In this document: positions 45,216-57,036 of the stretch, in pieces
Layout of the letters: each line of letters begins with the position of its first letter
How positions within the stretch are numbered: the stretch's first letter is position 1
Assembly: GCA_028699065.1 (NCBI GenBank)
Contig: JAQVVH010000001.1
Location: 186,001-250,000, forward strand
Direction: 5' to 3'
DNA from: Gallionella sp.
GTDB lineage: Bacteria; Pseudomonadota; Gammaproteobacteria; Burkholderiales; Gallionellaceae
DNA: 64,000 nucleotides
The notes under the pieces: model-generated
Seen by the model: only the letters and a program-made list of their open reading frames with translations
Told to the model about the DNA's origin: nothing
Databases searched by the model: none
Position numbers and translations under genes: made by a program

Positions 45216-45238
45216 CCGCCCGCAAGGGCGGTTTATTT
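45216..45238. terminator. Intrinsic terminator between repeat-protein gene and rimO (convergent)
   Basis: ccgccc-gcaa-gggcgg followed by tttatttt. Confidence 0.8.
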
Positions 45239-46558
45239 TGCGACTTCCGCCCACAGGTCGTGGGTATCCGAGTCCGTGATGGTGACCTCAACCAGGTCAC
45301 CCACTTCCAGCGATCCGTCATCATCGATGTAAACCAGCCCGTCGATCTCCGGCGCGTCGGCGGCACTGCGCGCGATGGCACCGTCTTCATCCAATTCGTC
45401 CACCAGCACAGTCATCGTTTTGCCGACCTTGGCGCGCAATTTTTCTTCGCTGATTTCTTCCTGTAACAACATCAATCTGGCCAGTCGCTCCTCCTGCACT
45501 TCGGGTGGCACATGATCAGGTAGCGCGTTTGCGGTTGCCCCCTCGACCGGCGAATAGGCAAAGGCCCCGACGCGGTCGAGCTGCGCTTCCTCGACGAAAT
45601 CCAGCAGCTCCTCGAATTCCTCTTCGGTTTCACCGGGAAAACCCACAATAAAGGTGCTGCGCAGTGTCAGATCGGGACAGGTCTCACGCCATTGGCGGAT
45701 GCGCGCCAAGACATTATCGCTGCTGGCCGGGCGCTTCATGAGCTTGAGTATGCGCGGGTTGGCATGCTGGAACGGAATATCCAGATACGGCAGGATTTTG
45801 CCTTCGGCCATGAGCGGAATGACCTCGTCCACGTGCGGATAGGGATAAACATAATGCAGCCGCACCCACGCCCCGAGACTCCCCATCGCGGCAGCGAGTT
45901 CGGTCATGCGCGTTTTTAGCGGGCGTCCGCCCCAGAAACCCGTGCGATATTTCACATCCACGCCATAGGCACTGGTGTCTTGCGAAATCACCAGCAATTC
46001 CTTCACGCCGGACTCAACCAGCTTTTCCGCTTCCAGCATCACCTCGCCGACCGGGCGGCTGACCAGATCGCCGCGCAAACCCGGGATGATGCAAAACGTG
46101 CAGCGATGATTGCAGCCCTCGGAAATTTTCACATAAGCGTAATGGCGTGGTGTGAGCCGTATACCTTGAGGCGGCACCAGATCAGTGTACGGATCGTGCA
46201 GGCGCGGCAAATGCGCGTGCACGGCTTCCATCACCTCATCGGTCGCGTGCGGCCCGCTCACCGCCAGTACTTTCGGATGCGTCTGCCGGATGATGTCGCC
46301 CTTGGCGCCCAGACAACCGGTCACGATCACCCTGCCGTTCTCCTGCAGCGCCTCGCCGATCGCATCCAGCGATTCCGCCACCGCACTGTCGATAAAACCG
46401 CAGGTATTCACCACCACCAGATCCGCCTCCTGGTAACTGCCTGAAATCGCGTAACCTTCAGCGCGCAAGCGCGTAAGGATGTGCTCGGAATCGACCGTCG
46501 CCTTGGGACAGCCGAGTGAGACAAAACCAACTTGGGGAATAGTTTTCTTTTCTTTCAT
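45233..46558 (-). CDS. rimO: Ribosomal protein S12 methylthiotransferase RimO
   Basis: [51 protein letters not shown] radical SAM CxxxCxxC, TRAM C-terminus; start inside ORF to 46717. Confidence 0.97.
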
Positions 46559-46590
46559 TTCGCTTCCAAAAATTATTGTTCTGATAGTAC

Positions 46591-49278
46591 TCAAGAAAAT
46601 CGAGCCGCCAACCCGTCTACCGTCATATTCACCGCAATGGCCGTATGTGGAATCAACACATAGCGCCAAGGCTTTCCGCCATTTGCAGCGGCATAGTCCG
46701 AAGCGTTCTTGCACCACTTGATTGCCGCTTCCATCTTGGCCAAAACGATCTCGTCTTCCATCTGGTTGCTGGCTTTGGGCTCCAGCATGTAAATCGCATC
46801 CTTGGTCTCAGCCACGAAGTCGGGCTGATACTCCAGTTGGTTGGCACCTTGTTTATAGAAAATCTGGAATTGCCCCTTCGCTGGCTTAAACCACTTTTCT
46901 GCATCCCGATCCAAAATCACCGCCAAAACCCGCTCAGCTTCCGAGTCAAACTTTTGCACGGGATAGAGGCAACGCTTGAATCCGCCAAACACATACTTCG
47001 CCATATTGCTCTTGTCGGCAGGCGAGACGCGATAGTCGGCCGGGGGCTCATTCACCGAGTATGTGTAGGCACTGGGTTTGAATTCCGTATAGCCCTTGCT
47101 CACCACCACTTCGTAATCGACTATCTCTTCCCAGCTATGCTCCTGCATCTGCGCATGGATGAACTTTGCGATATCACGCTGATAGCAACGTAGGACTTTG
47201 CGTGCCTCTTCTTCACCCAGGTATCCGCAAAGATGCCTTACCGTTTGCCCCGCCAGGTCATATAGCTGATCAGCCTGATCGTCGTACGACACATCATCGA
47301 AGTCCACCAAGCCACTGACGATGTAATCTTCCATTCGGTTCTCTTCAATACCCCCGTGTCCCATCTGCAAGAATTGCTGTTCTTGTGTGCGAAGGATTTG
47401 CGCGACCAGCTCATCAGAAACCTTCTGATAATTCATCCCATCCAGCTTTAAGGTGAAAGGCTTGAAACCAGCCTTTACCTCTCCTTTTGGCACCACCAGA
47501 ATGCGAGGAATATCTATCGTCTGCTGTGTCACCAACTCCACCGTCTTTGCCACCACAGCGGCAAAATCCGGTTGCTCGGTTACACCTTCAATTTCCATCT
47601 GAGCCGGGCGATGCTGCTCCTGCACGGCCTTCACGATAGCCGCCTGCACCTCGGGCTTGCTCAGGTGCGCCAAGGTAGGCACCACAGTTGGCTGATTCTC
47701 CATCTTGCGGATCACCTCGTAGGCAATCTGCGCCACCTTTTGTTCTTCAGGCTTGGTAAAGACCGGCTGCACCTCCTGCCCCGCCACCTTGGTACTGCCA
47801 GTTACATCGGCAGGCTTGATACCCAACTGGGTAGCTAGCTGAGTCTGCGAAACAATGGTCGCCGTCTTTTGCCCAAAGTCATCGTTATCCAGCACCACCG
47901 TTTTCAGGTGGATAGCTGAATCAGGACGGTTAGCCTCGTCGATGATCTCTTGGAATTTGTCGTGAGCGACAATGTTCAGCCTATCCACTGCCGTTACCCC
48001 AGTGCGCTTGCCATACGGCAGACGCAAACCACGCCCGATGGATTGCTCAATCAAAATCCGGGCATTGGCCGCACGCAGCGGCACGATGGTGTAAAGGTTG
48101 GTTACGTCCCAGCCTTCTTTCAGCATATTGACGTGAATCACGATCTCGGTCGGCTCATCGGTGTGCTCCACCTTCAGCAGCCTCTCGATCATCTCTTCTT
48201 CCTTTGCCCCACTCTGGCTCGAATCGACCTGGATGACCTTATCCTTGTAACGCCCCTCGAAGAAGCCATTAGACTGGATCAACGCCAACAAAGACCCGGC
48301 ATGAGTCGTATCGCGTGCGATGACCAACACAAATGGCTTAACGATCTTGTTATTCGTTTCGCGTGCATAAGTCTCCAGCTCCACCTTCACGCTCTCGTGC
48401 AGACGCACACCGTCTTCCAGCTTGATGCGCTCGATTTCTTCCGGCGACATCCCAGCCGGATTGAAATTCTTGCGCGTCACCACGGCAGGCTCTTTCACAA
48501 AGCCATCTTCCATCGCCTTACCCAATGGGTAATCGAGAATCACGTTCTTGAACTGTGCTTCGGCTCCCTTGGCACCTTCCACAAACGGTGTCGCCGTCAG
48601 TTCCAGTCCTAGAATTGGCTTCAGTTCATTGATCGCCCGGATACCGGCACTGGCACGGTAACGGTGCGATTCATCCATCAGCAGCACCAGATCAGGCAAT
48701 CCAGCCAGATAATCGAAATAGCTCTCGCCGATATATTCCGATAACCGCTTGATGCGTGGAGCCTTGCCGCCACGTACTTCGGAATTGATCTTGGAGATAT
48801 TGAAAATATTGATACGCACCCCGCCGAATAACGCGCCACTGGCAGGATCGTGCTGATCGTAGTTATCGCCAGTAATGATCACCGGCGCATCGATGGCGAA
48901 TTCCGAAATGCCCTTGAACACATACTTGGGATGCGTGCGGTCGCTGAAATCCGCGATCAGCTTGTTATAGATAGTCAGGTTTGGTGCCAACACAAAAAAG
49001 TTGTTGATACCATGCGCAAGGTGCAAATAGCTGACAAACGCCCCCATCAACCGTGTCTTTCCCACGCCTGTAGCTAGCGCAAAGCACAACGAAGGAAACT
49101 CGCGCTCGAAATCCGTTACCGATGGAAACTCGCCGCGAATCGCATCCAGGGCAGCCGCAATGTCCGCGCCCTTGTGCGGTGGCGTGATCTCGGTGAGGCG
49201 ATCCAGAATCTCCAACGAGCGACGCTGCGGCGCACGTAAACTCAACCGCCCGGCAATAGCATTCACATGGCGGTTCAT
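46591..49278 (-). CDS. Type III restriction enzyme Res-like helicase-nuclease
   Basis: 895 aa; [17 protein letters not shown] Walker [37 protein letters not shown]-terminal [21 protein letters not shown] fits PD-(D/E)XK; 4-nt ATGA overlap with methyltransferase gene. Confidence 0.9.
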
Positions 49279-50969
49279 TGCGCTTCTCCTTCATCAAACA
49301 AACCGCCCTGTGTCGCATTCACCCCTCGCGCCTTAGTCCCCTCAGCCGTTCGCCCTGAGTTTGTCGAAGGGCTGGGTGGAGCCTTCGGCAGATTTTCAAT
49401 CTGCAACGAATAATCGTCATGCCCCCACTCGCAGCGCGTCAGTACCTGTTTGGGTATCTTCTTCACTGTGAGGTTCGGATACTCACCCTTGCCACGGAAT
49501 GCAGTACACAACACCAACAAACTACGCTCCGGCCCCACTTCATCGGAAAGCTTCTGCAGCTGCTCATTGTTCAGGTTCGCCGTGGTGACGTAGATGAAAT
49601 CCCGCTCGGTGGAATGCCCATGCATCCAGTAATGTGCATCGCTGGGCGCATAGGTAAAGCCCTCCAGCTTGCACAAGGCTTGCGCCAGCATCTCGGCGTT
49701 GTATTCCTTGTTGATGACCCACTGCCCATAAGCATCCTGCCGCAACAGGCTGGGCGCGAGTTTGTAATAGCGGAAACCGCCGCCCCCTTGCCAATTCACC
49801 GCCTCAGAAATGCCGCCCTTATCCTCGCCATCAATCACCTTTTGCAGGCGCGGGATGATGTGCGTGTGGCAATGCTCGCCCAGCTCAATCATGATCCAGC
49901 GACGACCCATTTTGTGGGCGACTGCACCGGTGGTGCCGGAACCGGCGAAGGAATCGAGGACGAGGTCGCCTGGGTTAGTAGCGATTTCAAGGACTCGCTG
50001 AATCAGCCCCTCCGGTTTAGGCGTAATGAAATCGTCCACAAGAGAAGAGCTACTCAATACTGCACGCACCTCTTTTCTAGCAGCATCAGTGTGACTCGCA
50101 TATTCGTGAGACCACAAAGTTTGCGGCACCACACCTTGATTGCGCAGCAAGTGTTTATACCGTTTGAACGAAGGCGTTTTTCCAAGGCCATCCTTTCCCC
50201 AATAAATAAAGCCTTCGGCAATATGTCGAAGATGCTCATCTTTCGAGTAAGACCAAACGCGCGTTTTGCTTGGCCATATTTCTTCGCCAGTATTAGGCTG
50301 AATAATTGCGTAATAAAGGTTTGGGCGCTCTTCAACAGACTTGCTACAAGTGTAATTATCCGGGCGAAAAATTCCTTTCTCGTCTTCGTATTTGTATTGC
50401 CGATCCTTCTCTTCGGTTCGTGGGATTAGGTTTCTTTGCCAGCTTTCTGTTTTGCGATAAACCAGCACATGATCGTGCATGGGAGCAATAGTCTTGTGGT
50501 CGTTGGCAACTGCATATTTCTTCTGCCAAACCACATTCGCCACAAAGTTTCTTCGACCAAATACCTCGTCGCACAGCACTTTCAGGTAGTGCGCTTCGTT
50601 GTCATCAATTGTGATCCACAGCGATCCATCATCTGACAATAATTGCCGGATAATCTCAAGCCGGTCACGTATCAAGGAAAGCCAGATCGAATGCTCCACT
50701 CCATCGTCGTAATGCGTGAACGCACTGCCGGTGTTGTACGGAGGATCGATGAACACGCACTTAACCTTCCCTGCAAACTCCGCCTCCAAAGCTTTCAACG
50801 CCAGCAAGTTATCGCCAAAGATAAGCTGGTTATCGAAGATGTCGTCGTCCGTCACTAGATGCTTCGCGTGATAACTCTTCGCCGGGTCTTCCAGCAAAAT
50901 GCGCGGCTCCAGCTTGGGCCGGTTCTCCTTGCCAATCCAGGTGAGTTCGAGTTTTTGTTTGCCAGCCAT
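49275..50969 (-). CDS. Site-specific DNA-methyltransferase, type III Mod-like (beta class)
   Basis: 564 aa; motif IV KCVFIDPPYNTGSAFTHYDDG precedes motif I LVLDSFAGSGTTGAVAHKMGRRWIMIEL. Confidence 0.93.
   Translation of the reverse strand: MAGKQKLELTWIGKENRPKLEPRILLEDPAKSYHAKHLVTDDDIFDNQLIFGDNLLALKALEAEFAGKVKCVFIDPPYNTGSAFTHYDDGVEHSIWLSLIRDRLEIIRQLLSDDGSLWITIDDNEAHYLKVLCDEVFGRRNFVANVVWQKKYAVANDHKTIAPMHDHVLVYRKTESWQRNLIPRTEEKDRQYKYEDEKGIFRPDNYTCSKSVEERPNLYYAIIQPNTGEEIWPSKTRVWSYSKDEHLRHIAEGFIYWGKDGLGKTPSFKRYKHLLRNQGVVPQTLWSHEYASHTDAARKEVRAVLSSSSLVDDFITPKPEGLIQRVLEIATNPGDLVLDSFAGSGTTGAVAHKMGRRWIMIELGEHCHTHIIPRLQKVIDGEDKGGISEAVNWQGGGGFRYYKLAPSLLRQDAYGQWVINKEYNAEMLAQALCKLEGFTYAPSDAHYWMHGHSTERDFIYVTTANLNNEQLQKLSDEVGPERSLLVLCTAFRGKGEYPNLTVKKIPKQVLTRCEWGHDDYSLQIENLPKAPPSPSTNSGRTAEGTKARGVNATQGGLFDEGEAQ
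49345..49372. repeat. REP-like dispersed repeat (TTCGACAAACTCAGGGCGAAC type) inside the 3' end of the methyltransferase gene
   Basis: gccgttcgccctgagtttgtcgaagggc; gccct...agggc hairpin arms; translated in frame as PSTNSGRTAEG. Confidence 0.7.
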
Positions 50970-53900
50970 TAGTGGTATTTCCCTGAGCGATTGTCGAATG
51001 CAGGTTTTGTTCCTTCCAATACAGTAACAACAGAACCATTCAACACTGTGTTTTCGATTGCACCAGCCTTGTAGTTGATAGTGGAATTAGCCGCCCGGTC
51101 GAATTGCGCATGAATGATCTGTTCCGCGTCACACACGACAGCCAAATTCGGATTGTGCGTGACCATGATGATCTGCCGGTGCTTCTTGGCTTCGGAAAGA
51201 ACGGGAACCAATAGCCTGAAAACTGTTTCGTTATCCAAATTTTCTTCCGGCTGGTCAAGAATGATAGGGAGCTTGCCGATGTCCACCAACAGGTAAAAGA
51301 TCAGCAACAAAGCGCCTCGTTGACCAGGAGAAAGCTGCTCAATTTGTGTGTCCTGGAACGACAATGAATACCTAGGTTCAAGGAAATTTAATCCGAAGAT
51401 AAGGTCATAGACGGACACTGCGGACTGGCCTTTTTTCAGCACGTTCGAAATTCCAATAGCCGAAGACCCATTCCCCTTCGCTGCCTGGGATACCTTCTCA
51501 TGCAGGGCCTTGATGAAAGCGAGCGTTCCTTCTTTTGAATTTAAATTGTGACTGTCAAACAATTTCCTGACCGTTTCCGAGGCATCATCCAGCCCCCGGA
51601 ATTCACCGGAATTTTGCTTGATCAAATTGAACAACAAATCTGAAATGGCATCCGCAGTAGCAGCCAGCGTTGCCTGAAACTGAAGTCGATAGTCCTCGCG
51701 GATCAGGCTATTTTTTTGGATTAAGTCTTGGACTGGCTTGAAAAGCTCCTCGCGTGCAAATCGTTGTGCATTCAGAGTGTCAAATATCTCACCTGACAAA
51801 TTCAGGCGTTTCTCTTCCAGCTCCTTCAGTTGTACTGGCAGCTCCTTGAGCTGAGCTATTCGCGTCTCCAATCCAACCTTGGTTTCTGGTTCGGTTGGGC
51901 TACCATTCAACTCCGCAAGCTTCTTGTTCCAGCCTAATAGTTGACGCTGATAAGATTCAAATTGCTGCTGTGGCGCATCCAGCTTCGCGGTGAGTGTTTG
52001 TTTCTTTGCGGCAAGCGTTTCTATCTCACCAGATAGCTTTTCAGACTCGACTTTCAGATTGGCCTGTTTAGCAGATATTTCTCCTGATTTCTCATCGAGC
52101 ACAGCAGTTTTAACCTCAATGGTCGCCAGATCAGTCCATGCGACTCCAAGAACATCAAGATCGTCAGATGCTTCCAGTTGGGTCTGGTCAAATGTACGCT
52201 GAAGCAGGCGCAGCCTTTCACGAATATTCGCTATCGCCTTTTGTTGCTTGGCAGACCCCGTATTCTCCGACGCAATATCTTGCGCACGCTTCTTCGCGGC
52301 CTCTGTCTGCTGATTGATTGCAGCCAGTTCTTCTGCCGCCACCTTCTGCTCTGGATTCAGAGCCTCTGCTGGCTGAAGCACTTCTGCCGGTTTCAGCTTC
52401 CCATACTCCTCAATTTGCTTGGTCTTCAACAAGAGCAAGTCCGTCAGCTTATCCAACTCGACTGGCTGTAGCTGCTCCTCGATACGCACGATTGAAGCAT
52501 TAATTGAGGCGAGGTCCTTGCGATACTCCCCCAACCGATTTCTGAGTGCCTGCTCTTGCTGCTCAGTGAGTTGATCAAAGTCCAGCGCTCCAAGGCGCAT
52601 CTCTTCCTTCGTATGAGAAAAGATCACTGACCTTAGCTCTTTTTCAAAGGCGTTCGATTTCCCGGATACATGCTCGTTACAGAGCTCTTCAAAATAGCCT
52701 TGTGGGATGTATCGCACCAACTCGGCTTTCTCCTCCGTCGGTAATTCATTCAGAGGGCGGGCCTCGGTGCTCGCATCACGCCAAGTCAGCGTTCCAGTGA
52801 AATGCCTCGCTGGCTCCCCAGATTTGCCAAAGAATCTGTCTTTTTTCAGAAAGCTGAAATGCCTCGATTGTTTAGAATGACCGAGCGTAGCGATGACATC
52901 AGCCAAGGCACTTTTGCCACTGCCTTTGTTGCCAATAATGGCTACCAAATCAGGATTCAATGGGATGTCGCAACCATGGAGCCAATGACCGACCTCGGCT
53001 TTACCCCCTGTTTTGATGACCTCAATCGAGTCTATGTAATATGTCTTGTTATAGTCTATCGATTGCAGCTTGGGGGGAATTTCGCCAATGAAGGAACGTC
53101 TTGCCGGCTCCAGAATGGCATGTTTAAGTCCACGAAACGAGGGATCAGCCTTAATCCACGTTATCTTGCCAGATGGAAAGTCTCCGTAGCCGCGCTTGTT
53201 ATTATCCCCTGGCGTACCCACGAAGCAATGCGCATCGCTCCCTGAAACTGCCAAGCGGGGCTCATTTTTCAAGGCAGCTTGGAAATTTTTTATGAACTTG
53301 GTGTTGCCAGCTGTTTCCTCACCTGCGAATGCTGCCCATAAGTCGGAATCTCTTGTCTCAAAAATTGGCGAGTTTTGAAATAAATTCATGACATATGCGT
53401 AATGCTCTTGCCATTTAACATCCGCCAAGCCGTCATTTGTGTCCCAAGGCATAAAACCTATCGCATAACCGTTAGGAACCTTGAGGATTGCCTCCCTGTA
53501 AGAATCAGGATTTATTTCTGCAATCATCGCTCCTGCCAACAACGCTTTTTCATTATTTGCATCAATCTCGTTCTTGGTGAAGCCATGCACTTTGAGCTTG
53601 TCGTCTCCAACGTCCCTTGCAAGCTCAATAAGCGCTGGTTTTGATAGCAGTCTATTAATCAGCTCAATTTTCAGCGTTGACATGAAGTCACGCAATGACT
53701 GCTCCTCAATTTCATCTGAAAATATGACATGAGCATTCAGACGTCCTTTCATTGGAGCAGCAAGCCGCAACTCTATTCCAGGGAAGACTTTCTTCCTCAG
53801 CACAGGTGCGCCGGGCTCCTTGAGTCTATTTTGCAGCGCAAACCATCCATCAAATGTCCAGTAGTCCATGATGGCAAACACAACAGGCTTCGCGTTGTTC

Positions 53901-54055
53901 ATGGCTTCAATCATCTCATCGACCAGTTTCCTGTTGTGATCCGACAACAGGTCGCCATCGAATTTTGTACCCAGCCAATGGAATGATGCTGGTGTATGCA
54001 CATGCAAGTCCCACTGATTCCACTGTGCTCCCCTCGCGAGTTCTCTTCTGCTCAT
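50969..54055 (-). CDS. PHP-domain + SMC/ABC-type ATPase fusion (TrlF-like)
   Basis: ~1028 aa; PHP motifs WDLHVHTPASF and VSGSDAHCF; Walker A VAIIGNKGSGKSALADVIATLG; long coiled coil; signature LSPGQRGALLL; Walker B PIILDQPEENLDN; H-loop IIMVTHNPN; start codon forms TGATG overlap with upstream gene. Confidence 0.87.
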   Translation of the reverse strand: MSRRELARGAQWNQWDLHVHTPASFHWLGTKFDGDLLSDHNRKLVDEMIEAMNNAKPVVFAIMDYWTFDGWFALQNRLKEPGAPVLRKKVFPGIELRLAAPMKGRLNAHVIFSDEIEEQSLRDFMSTLKIELINRLLSKPALIELARDVGDDKLKVHGFTKNEIDANNEKALLAGAMIAEINPDSYREAILKVPNGYAIGFMPWDTNDGLADVKWQEHYAYVMNLFQNSPIFETRDSDLWAAFAGEETAGNTKFIKNFQAALKNEPRLAVSGSDAHCFVGTPGDNNKRGYGDFPSGKITWIKADPSFRGLKHAILEPARRSFIGEIPPKLQSIDYNKTYYIDSIEVIKTGGKAEVGHWLHGCDIPLNPDLVAIIGNKGSGKSALADVIATLGHSKQSRHFSFLKKDRFFGKSGEPARHFTGTLTWRDASTEARPLNELPTEEKAELVRYIPQGYFEELCNEHVSGKSNAFEKELRSVIFSHTKEEMRLGALDFDQLTEQQEQALRNRLGEYRKDLASINASIVRIEEQLQPVELDKLTDLLLLKTKQIEEYGKLKPAEVLQPAEALNPEQKVAAEELAAINQQTEAAKKRAQDIASENTGSAKQQKAIANIRERLRLLQRTFDQTQLEASDDLDVLGVAWTDLATIEVKTAVLDEKSGEISAKQANLKVESEKLSGEIETLAAKKQTLTAKLDAPQQQFESYQRQLLGWNKKLAELNGSPTEPETKVGLETRIAQLKELPVQLKELEEKRLNLSGEIFDTLNAQRFAREELFKPVQDLIQKNSLIREDYRLQFQATLAATADAISDLLFNLIKQNSGEFRGLDDASETVRKLFDSHNLNSKEGTLAFIKALHEKVSQAAKGNGSSAIGISNVLKKGQSAVSVYDLIFGLNFLEPRYSLSFQDTQIEQLSPGQRGALLLIFYLLVDIGKLPIILDQPEENLDNETVFRLLVPVLSEAKKHRQIIMVTHNPNLAVVCDAEQIIHAQFDRAANSTINYKAGAIENTVLNGSVVTVLEGTKPAFDNRSGKYH

Positions 54056-57036: not shown

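Follow-up and report, generated by a model that had tools for sequence, protein, structure and literature searches.

The window analysed here, a stretch of 64,000 nucleotides from Gallionella sp., holds an operon in which an SNF2 helicase gene, a gene for a PHP-SMC ATPase, a methyltransferase gene (mod) and a res gene follow one another. The locus raises the question of whether these four genes constitute one composite defence system, as a sequence-only reading had proposed, or whether the two genes preceding mod and res stand in different relations to them. The explanation we favour, and regard as reasonably probable, is that of a horizontally acquired operon of a three-gene type, SNF2-Mod-Res. 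It would be a type III restriction-modification (R-M) system in which the SNF2 protein is a partner of Mod and Res, with the PHP-SMC ATPase, of the TrlF family, as cargo and second-line effector.

Structure of the operon and its flanks

Four large minus-strand open reading frames (ORFs) are present as first described (Table 1), with overlaps of 1 nt at the SNF2/TrlF junction (GTGTGATGAGC), 1 nt at TrlF/Mod (CACTAATGGCT) and 4 nt at Mod/Res (GCGCAATGAACC, 49275-49278), mod and res being adjacent and co-directional. An alternative in-frame ATG 15 nt upstream is possible for the PHP-ATPase gene. The leader is the sole non-coding gap 5′ of the operon, and no match to the sigma-70 consensus was found upstream of the SNF2 gene. 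The GC content of the cassette (0.46-0.57) lies below the 0.57-0.62 of most flanking kilobases, which bears out the earlier impression of an AT-rich block.

Both flanking genes named in the sequence-only reading, relA and rimO, were found, but the start of rimO had to be revised. The ORF from GTG 46717 (45233-46717) overlaps res and is over-extended, its match to TIGR01125 beginning at residue 62. A start at ATG 46558, 32 nt after res, appears better placed and suits the family model. As only 32 nt then remain between the two genes, rimO may be co-transcribed with the cassette. None of nine other large ORFs in the window had a PADLOC match, and a multi-system defence island around the operon was rejected on these grounds.

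Table 1. Coordinates (window positions) of the operon, its leader and its neighbours.
Feature	Position	Strand	Remarks
SNF2 gene, first of operon, core component	54055..57036	-	993 aa; RapA/DrmD-like translocase
TrlF-family PHP-ATPase gene, cargo	50969..54055	-	1028 aa
Type III Mod gene	49275..50969	-	564 aa; beta-class N6-adenine/N4-cytosine methyltransferase
Type III Res gene	46591..49278	-	895 aa; SF2 helicase-like motor, C-terminal PD-(D/E)XK nuclease
118-bp leader between relA stop and SNF2 start	57037..57154	-	Presumed promoter region
relA and four-gene cassette segment	46559..59155	.	Missing between ZIP-transporter gene and rimO in sister species
RelA/SpoT-family gene, upstream neighbour of operon	57155-59146		
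ZIP-transporter gene	59156-59929

Mod and Res form a type III pair

In the textbook picture, type III R-M is a two-gene system that hemimethylates an asymmetric site, cuts 25-27 bp away and needs two sites arranged head to head. The enzymes travel along DNA and require two unmethylated inverted sites, and for classical systems, EcoP15I among them, Mod and Res suffice (PMC3874151).

Mod matched PF01555 (160 bits) and PADLOC MTase_III (700 bits), and shows the beta-class order of motifs, DPPYNTG (75-81) preceding DSFAGSGTTG (339-348), conserved among 53 sequences. It is related to the EcoP15I Mod in the PDB. Res matched PF04851 and PADLOC REase_III (730 bits); its motifs I-VI and the residues P819-D820...E833-x-K835 are conserved in most of 51 sequences. 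The locus thus holds a beta-class Mod and a Res with both motor and PD-(D/E)XK motifs, encoded by adjacent co-directional genes, and the earlier assignment to type III R-M stands. For each of the four genes, the catalytic residues are intact and prove conserved when 35-60 relatives are compared; the degenerate motifs that would have spoken against a composite system are not seen. Both proteins are relatives of the EcoP15I subunits (Res only distantly, at 30 bits), and the adjacency of mod and res is that of the type III systems EcoP1I and EcoP15I. Unlike these, the operon in the window is led by a RapA-like SNF2 gene, with a cargo gene in between.

The SNF2 and TrlF proteins

The SNF2 protein matched PF00176 (122 bits), PADLOC DrmD (690 bits) and NF038318 (698 bits against a cut-off of 950). 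Its motifs DEVGLGKT, DEAH, TATP and QRIGRCHRYGQ are nearly invariant in 60 sequences. An AF2 model (pLDDT 78) aligns with RapA over the whole chain (E 1e-25), suggesting a protein built like this remover of RNA polymerase.

The product of the second gene passes NF045780 (TrlF_fam_ATP) with 668 bits, the equivalog cut-off being 350. An N-terminal PHP-type phosphoesterase domain is fused to an SMC/Rad50-like ATPase with a long coiled coil. The PHP residues D16, H18, H20, D64, E95, H109, D274 and H276 are invariant or nearly so, as are the Walker A, signature (SPGQR) and Walker B motifs. The PHP motifs (D16-x-H18-x-H20, D64-Y65, E95, H109 and D274-A-H276) are kept down to 23-29% identity, with Tyr replacing the usual His in the second of them (MDYW). 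A Pfam scan gave no PHP match, and the PHP assignment rests on these motifs together with JGI names that mention TrpH phosphoesterase. Against the equivalog for Ppl, a PHP-ATPase antiphage protein, TrlF scored 94 bits with a cut-off of 1000 (NF042955). The nearest folds to its AF2 model (pLDDT 83) are Mre11-Rad50, MukB, JetC and LmuB. It is the ATPase and coiled coil that most resemble Rad50, MukB, Wadjet JetC and Lamassu LmuB, whereas the phosphoesterase is of PHP type and fused at the N-terminus, and no kleisin or JetD/LmuA partner gene is present. At two loci outside R-M operons (L019 13184-16872, L023 13138-17897), the genes after TrlF encode a calcineurin-type phosphoesterase and an SbcC/AAA_27-like ATPase, a Mre11-Rad50-like pair.

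The family name derives from the temperature-restricting locus (TRL) of Photorhabdus, trlF-trlG-trlR, at which growth halts at 36 °C and which is without SNF2, Mod or Res (PMC7554251). In the window, by contrast, trlF has SNF2 and mod as its neighbours, with no trlG or trlR alongside, and the locus is not a TRL. Among the open-access literature matches listed for TrlF, only the Photorhabdus locus was relevant.

The four-gene order recurs in other genomes

Species genomes were scanned for TrlF, yielding 44 loci. Much the same set of four genes, in unchanged order, was found at 22 further loci in proteobacteria and Chloroflexota, some of them broken or partial, with hosts including Stutzerimonas, Stenotrophomonas, Nitrosomonas, Dyella, Variovorax, Undibacterium and Anaerolineales. 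This recurrence indicates that the arrangement is more than chance, and on this count the gene-neighbourhood check advised by the sequence-only reading came out in its favour. Where TrlF is at least 68% identical and the sequence upstream of it is available, as in 21 loci, SNF2 always lies upstream; it is adjacent to TrlF in 20 of these, a small gene block intervening in L014. One more match in this identity range (L037) consists of an isolated fragment and stands outside the 21. A 1-nt TRATG overlap was present at 13 of 17 checked junctions.

Extra genes are common in the TrlF loci, namely AIPR and GHKL between TrlF and Mod, or YhcG/DUF1016 and RhuM between Mod and Res. A second locus form carries DUF2130 between SNF2 and TrlF (L018, L022, L034). 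More generally, DUF2130 directly precedes a distinct TrlF clade (L018 8664-9956, L034 4929-6245, L020 8418-9959, L021 8688-9974), which occurs with or without SNF2-Mod-Res.

A recurring SNF2-Mod-Res core with exchangeable cargo

Loci anchored on TrlF are biased, and the survey was therefore re-anchored on SNF2. Two context-blind draws, of 387 genomes of the class (SNF2 matches in 24 genomes from 24 genera) and 399 of the phylum (19 genomes from 17 genera), gave 42 SNF2 matches outside the window's own genome. Surrounding genes were labelled by similarity to HMM-scanned representatives, and the 27 loci with at least 7 kb of downstream sequence were taken as assessable.

Type III Mod and Res were found on the strand of SNF2 in every one of these 27 loci, and also in L154, where 6 kb of downstream sequence is available. 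Mod is split by a frameshift in a few cases (L160, L191). The association extends to other Mod/Res lineages, one with a Mod of ~1100 aa and a Res of ~1100 aa, confirmed by PADLOC, and another comprising a 673/976-aa Mod/Res pair, the Res of which matched a type III family in NCBIfam. SNF2 directly precedes Mod, with no gene in the gap, in 11 loci. In the other 16 the gap is occupied by exchangeable genes, often of abortive-infection type: AIPR (AIPR/AbiU), SMC-like AAA, AAA_13/PDC-S06, AAA with subtilase, AAA_21, AlbA-GHKL, DSR2-like and unlabelled genes, several of these labels resting on BLAST similarity to one scanned representative.

TrlF itself was present in one of the 27 loci (L164), there between Mod and Res, leaving 26 cores without it. 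Of the 387 class genomes, 24 have a member of the SNF2 subfamily and 22 one of the Res subfamily, while a strong TrlF match was confined to the window's genome, with one partial match of 35% besides. The claim that the PHP-SMC gene is a fixed part must consequently be dropped, for its position is variable or empty, and the four genes were rejected as a fixed set. What survives of the proposed composite system is a recurring mobile operon in which SNF2 is tied to the type III genes, TrlF being cargo and not core. The Res subfamily mostly occurs with SNF2, but in several genomes without it; SNF2 may thus assist without being essential.

The arrangement SNF2-[cargo]-methyltransferase-Res-type helicase is repeated on annotated plasmids of Cupriavidus, Deinococcus, Salmonella, Aeromonas and a planctomycete, the cargo being absent, AIPR with VapC, an Abi family gene, AAA with DUF4276, or an unknown gene with an AAA-like one. 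Several individual cargoes were also recorded. In L186 (6687-10259) a DSR2-like (Sir2-type) gene of 1190 aa, with 478 bits to PADLOC Dsr2, lies between SNF2 and the type III Mod. A pair of AAA ATPase and subtilase (Peptidase_S8) genes recurs as cargo in these type III operons, whether or not SNF2 is present (L153, L157, L163, L177, L178). A third type, between SNF2 and Mod in L159, L199 and L200, is an AlbA_2/HATPase_c_4 gene resembling TrlG of the Photorhabdus TRL, a growth-arrest family.

Co-divergence of the operon proteins

Over 37 loci, the protein distances of SNF2 and Res were the most strongly correlated of all gene pairs (r = 0.93), with lower values for SNF2-Mod (0.64) and Mod-Res (0.58). 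For SNF2-TrlF the correlation was 0.78 (18 loci). Within the TrlF clade proper, SNF2-Res remained at 0.94 and SNF2-TrlF stood at 0.54. Joint transfer of neighbouring genes explains part of the SNF2-Res correlation. However, Mod lies between the two, and distance along the operon thus fails to explain why theirs is the highest value. Mod, the bearer of the target-recognition region, is the component swapped most.

Alternative explanations

The conserved SNF2-TrlF-Mod-Res order, the stop/start overlaps and the SNF2-TrlF correlation would all suit a single obligate four-protein machine, in which TrlF is needed for restriction itself. Such a machine is hard to reconcile with 26 of 27 context-blind cores lacking TrlF and an empty SNF2-Mod gap in 11, nor does the SNF2-TrlF correlation hold up within the TrlF clade as that of SNF2-Res does; we therefore think it improbable. 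At the other extreme, an ordinary two-gene type III system might have come to lie behind two unrelated, independently acting defence genes, with SNF2 playing no part in restriction. Systems of the EcoP15I type do work with Mod and Res alone (PMC3874151), and some loci of the Res subfamily are without SNF2. Against this, SNF2 always comes first, followed by Mod and Res, in all 27 loci and across different Mod/Res lineages, and its co-divergence with Res exceeds that of every other gene pair, which makes an independent SNF2 unlikely.

The helicase also invites comparison with DISARM and ARMADA; in a divergent system of that type, phage would be blocked by a RapA-like helicase together with a methylase, and no classical cutter would be involved. 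The MZB/DUF1998 domain (PF09369) is the hallmark of DrmB/YprA; it is absent from the whole Gallionella genome, the control search being positive in 8 of 14 genomes, and no drm genes lie in the flanks of the operon. The SNF2 protein belongs to the same helicase subfamily as DrmD of class 1 DISARM (PADLOC, NCBIfam), so the resemblance noted in the sequence-only reading is real, but it misses the DrmD equivalog cut-offs (698 of 950; 265 of 610), and the operon has a full type III Res with an intact nuclease motif. ARMADA and BREX-related systems likewise combine a RapA/BrxHII-like SNF2 helicase with a DNA adenine methylase (PMC12458937, PMC12839542), and ARMADA defence needs both (PMC12458937). 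Their methylases are PglX-like and go with YprA helicases or HKD/REase-fused effectors in place of type III Mod-Res; the window's methylase is of type III. Membership of DISARM or ARMADA was rejected on the cut-offs and the missing domain, and a divergent system of this kind is scarcely credible. Finally, TrlF might mainly be a stress- or temperature-dependent growth regulator and not a phage effector, as the growth arrest linked to the Photorhabdus locus could suggest. The mutations selected there fell in trlG and none in trlF (PMC7554251), R-M operons are where most close TrlF relatives lie, and the cargo of SNF2-Mod-Res itself includes an AlbA-GHKL gene like trlG, all of which renders this very unlikely. 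Given the R-M setting of TrlF and the TrlG-like cargo, the effect of temperature could be a by-product of a defence module.

A possible mode of action

For the favoured SNF2-Mod-Res operon with TrlF as cargo, we infer the biochemical and physiological steps from the gene set, its intact motifs and the patterns of association. Mod would methylate the recognition sites of the host, and Res, docked on Mod, would travel along unmethylated invading DNA and cut it. The SNF2 protein, moving on double-stranded DNA as the partner of Mod-Res, could clear roadblocks or help to load or license Res. TrlF would serve as the second-line effector: a single-chain counterpart of Mre11-Rad50 and a plausible sensor of DNA ends or invaders with a nuclease or phosphatase output. 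It might act upon failed restriction or DNA ends, the cell then stalling or dying before phage release. A precedent for an effector guarding an R-M complex is PrrC of EcoprrI, an abortive-infection-type gene embedded in a type Ic R-M locus and held ready for inhibited restriction (PMC12707154). The two differ in kind and setting, PrrC being an anticodon nuclease from a type I locus and TrlF a PHP-SMC ATPase from a type III one; it is by its embedded position that TrlF is a candidate guardian. Against a killing role it must be set that TrlF comes from a temperature-restriction locus in which none of the mutations selected fell in trlF (PMC7554251).

A wider proposal, which we put forward tentatively, is that many type III R-M systems are three-part machines with SNF2 as a working partner, the socket behind SNF2 taking varied abortive-infection effectors (TrlF, DSR2-like, AIPR, SMC-like ATPases, subtilase pairs) triggered by the same restriction complex. 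The components are each known; the open-access literature searched gave no description of an SNF2-led type III architecture, of SNF2 as a regular companion of Mod-Res or of the cargo position. Were the three-gene version widespread, one would have to ask how a RapA-like motor assists a restriction enzyme that slides along DNA covered with protein. Reading whichever gene lies between SNF2 and Mod offers a simple way to new abortive-infection effectors, and exchangeable cargo allows one to test whether one sensor triggers many of them. TrlF, common in databases and named for a temperature phenotype, is now placed in an antiphage setting.

Signs of foreign origin

The operon bears signs of horizontal acquisition. 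Among up to 200 related genomes, a convincing TrlF was found within the genus in the window's own genome only, and one other genome of the family carries a relative of 60% identity. No direct repeats marking insertion ends were found at either cassette boundary. A 17-nt repeat, CCTGAGYTTGTCGAAGG, has exactly two copies in the 1.96-Mb genome (one mismatch allowed), at 49354-49370 in the C-terminus of Mod and at 55670-55686 near residue 450 of SNF2. Each copy gives its protein extra residues not present in relatives, a pattern that fits a donor genome rich in the repeat.

At many sister-species loci, no more than 1.5 kb separates rimO from a ZIP gene upstream of it. With ZIP directly beside rimO in many sister species, relA and the cassette are an addition between them here. 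Matches to relA in the sister species are on other contigs or at other loci. In the window, relA (57155-59146) adjoins the cassette instead of occupying the place it has in the sister species, whose relA genes share no more than 66% identity with it. This relA and the cassette may have moved jointly.
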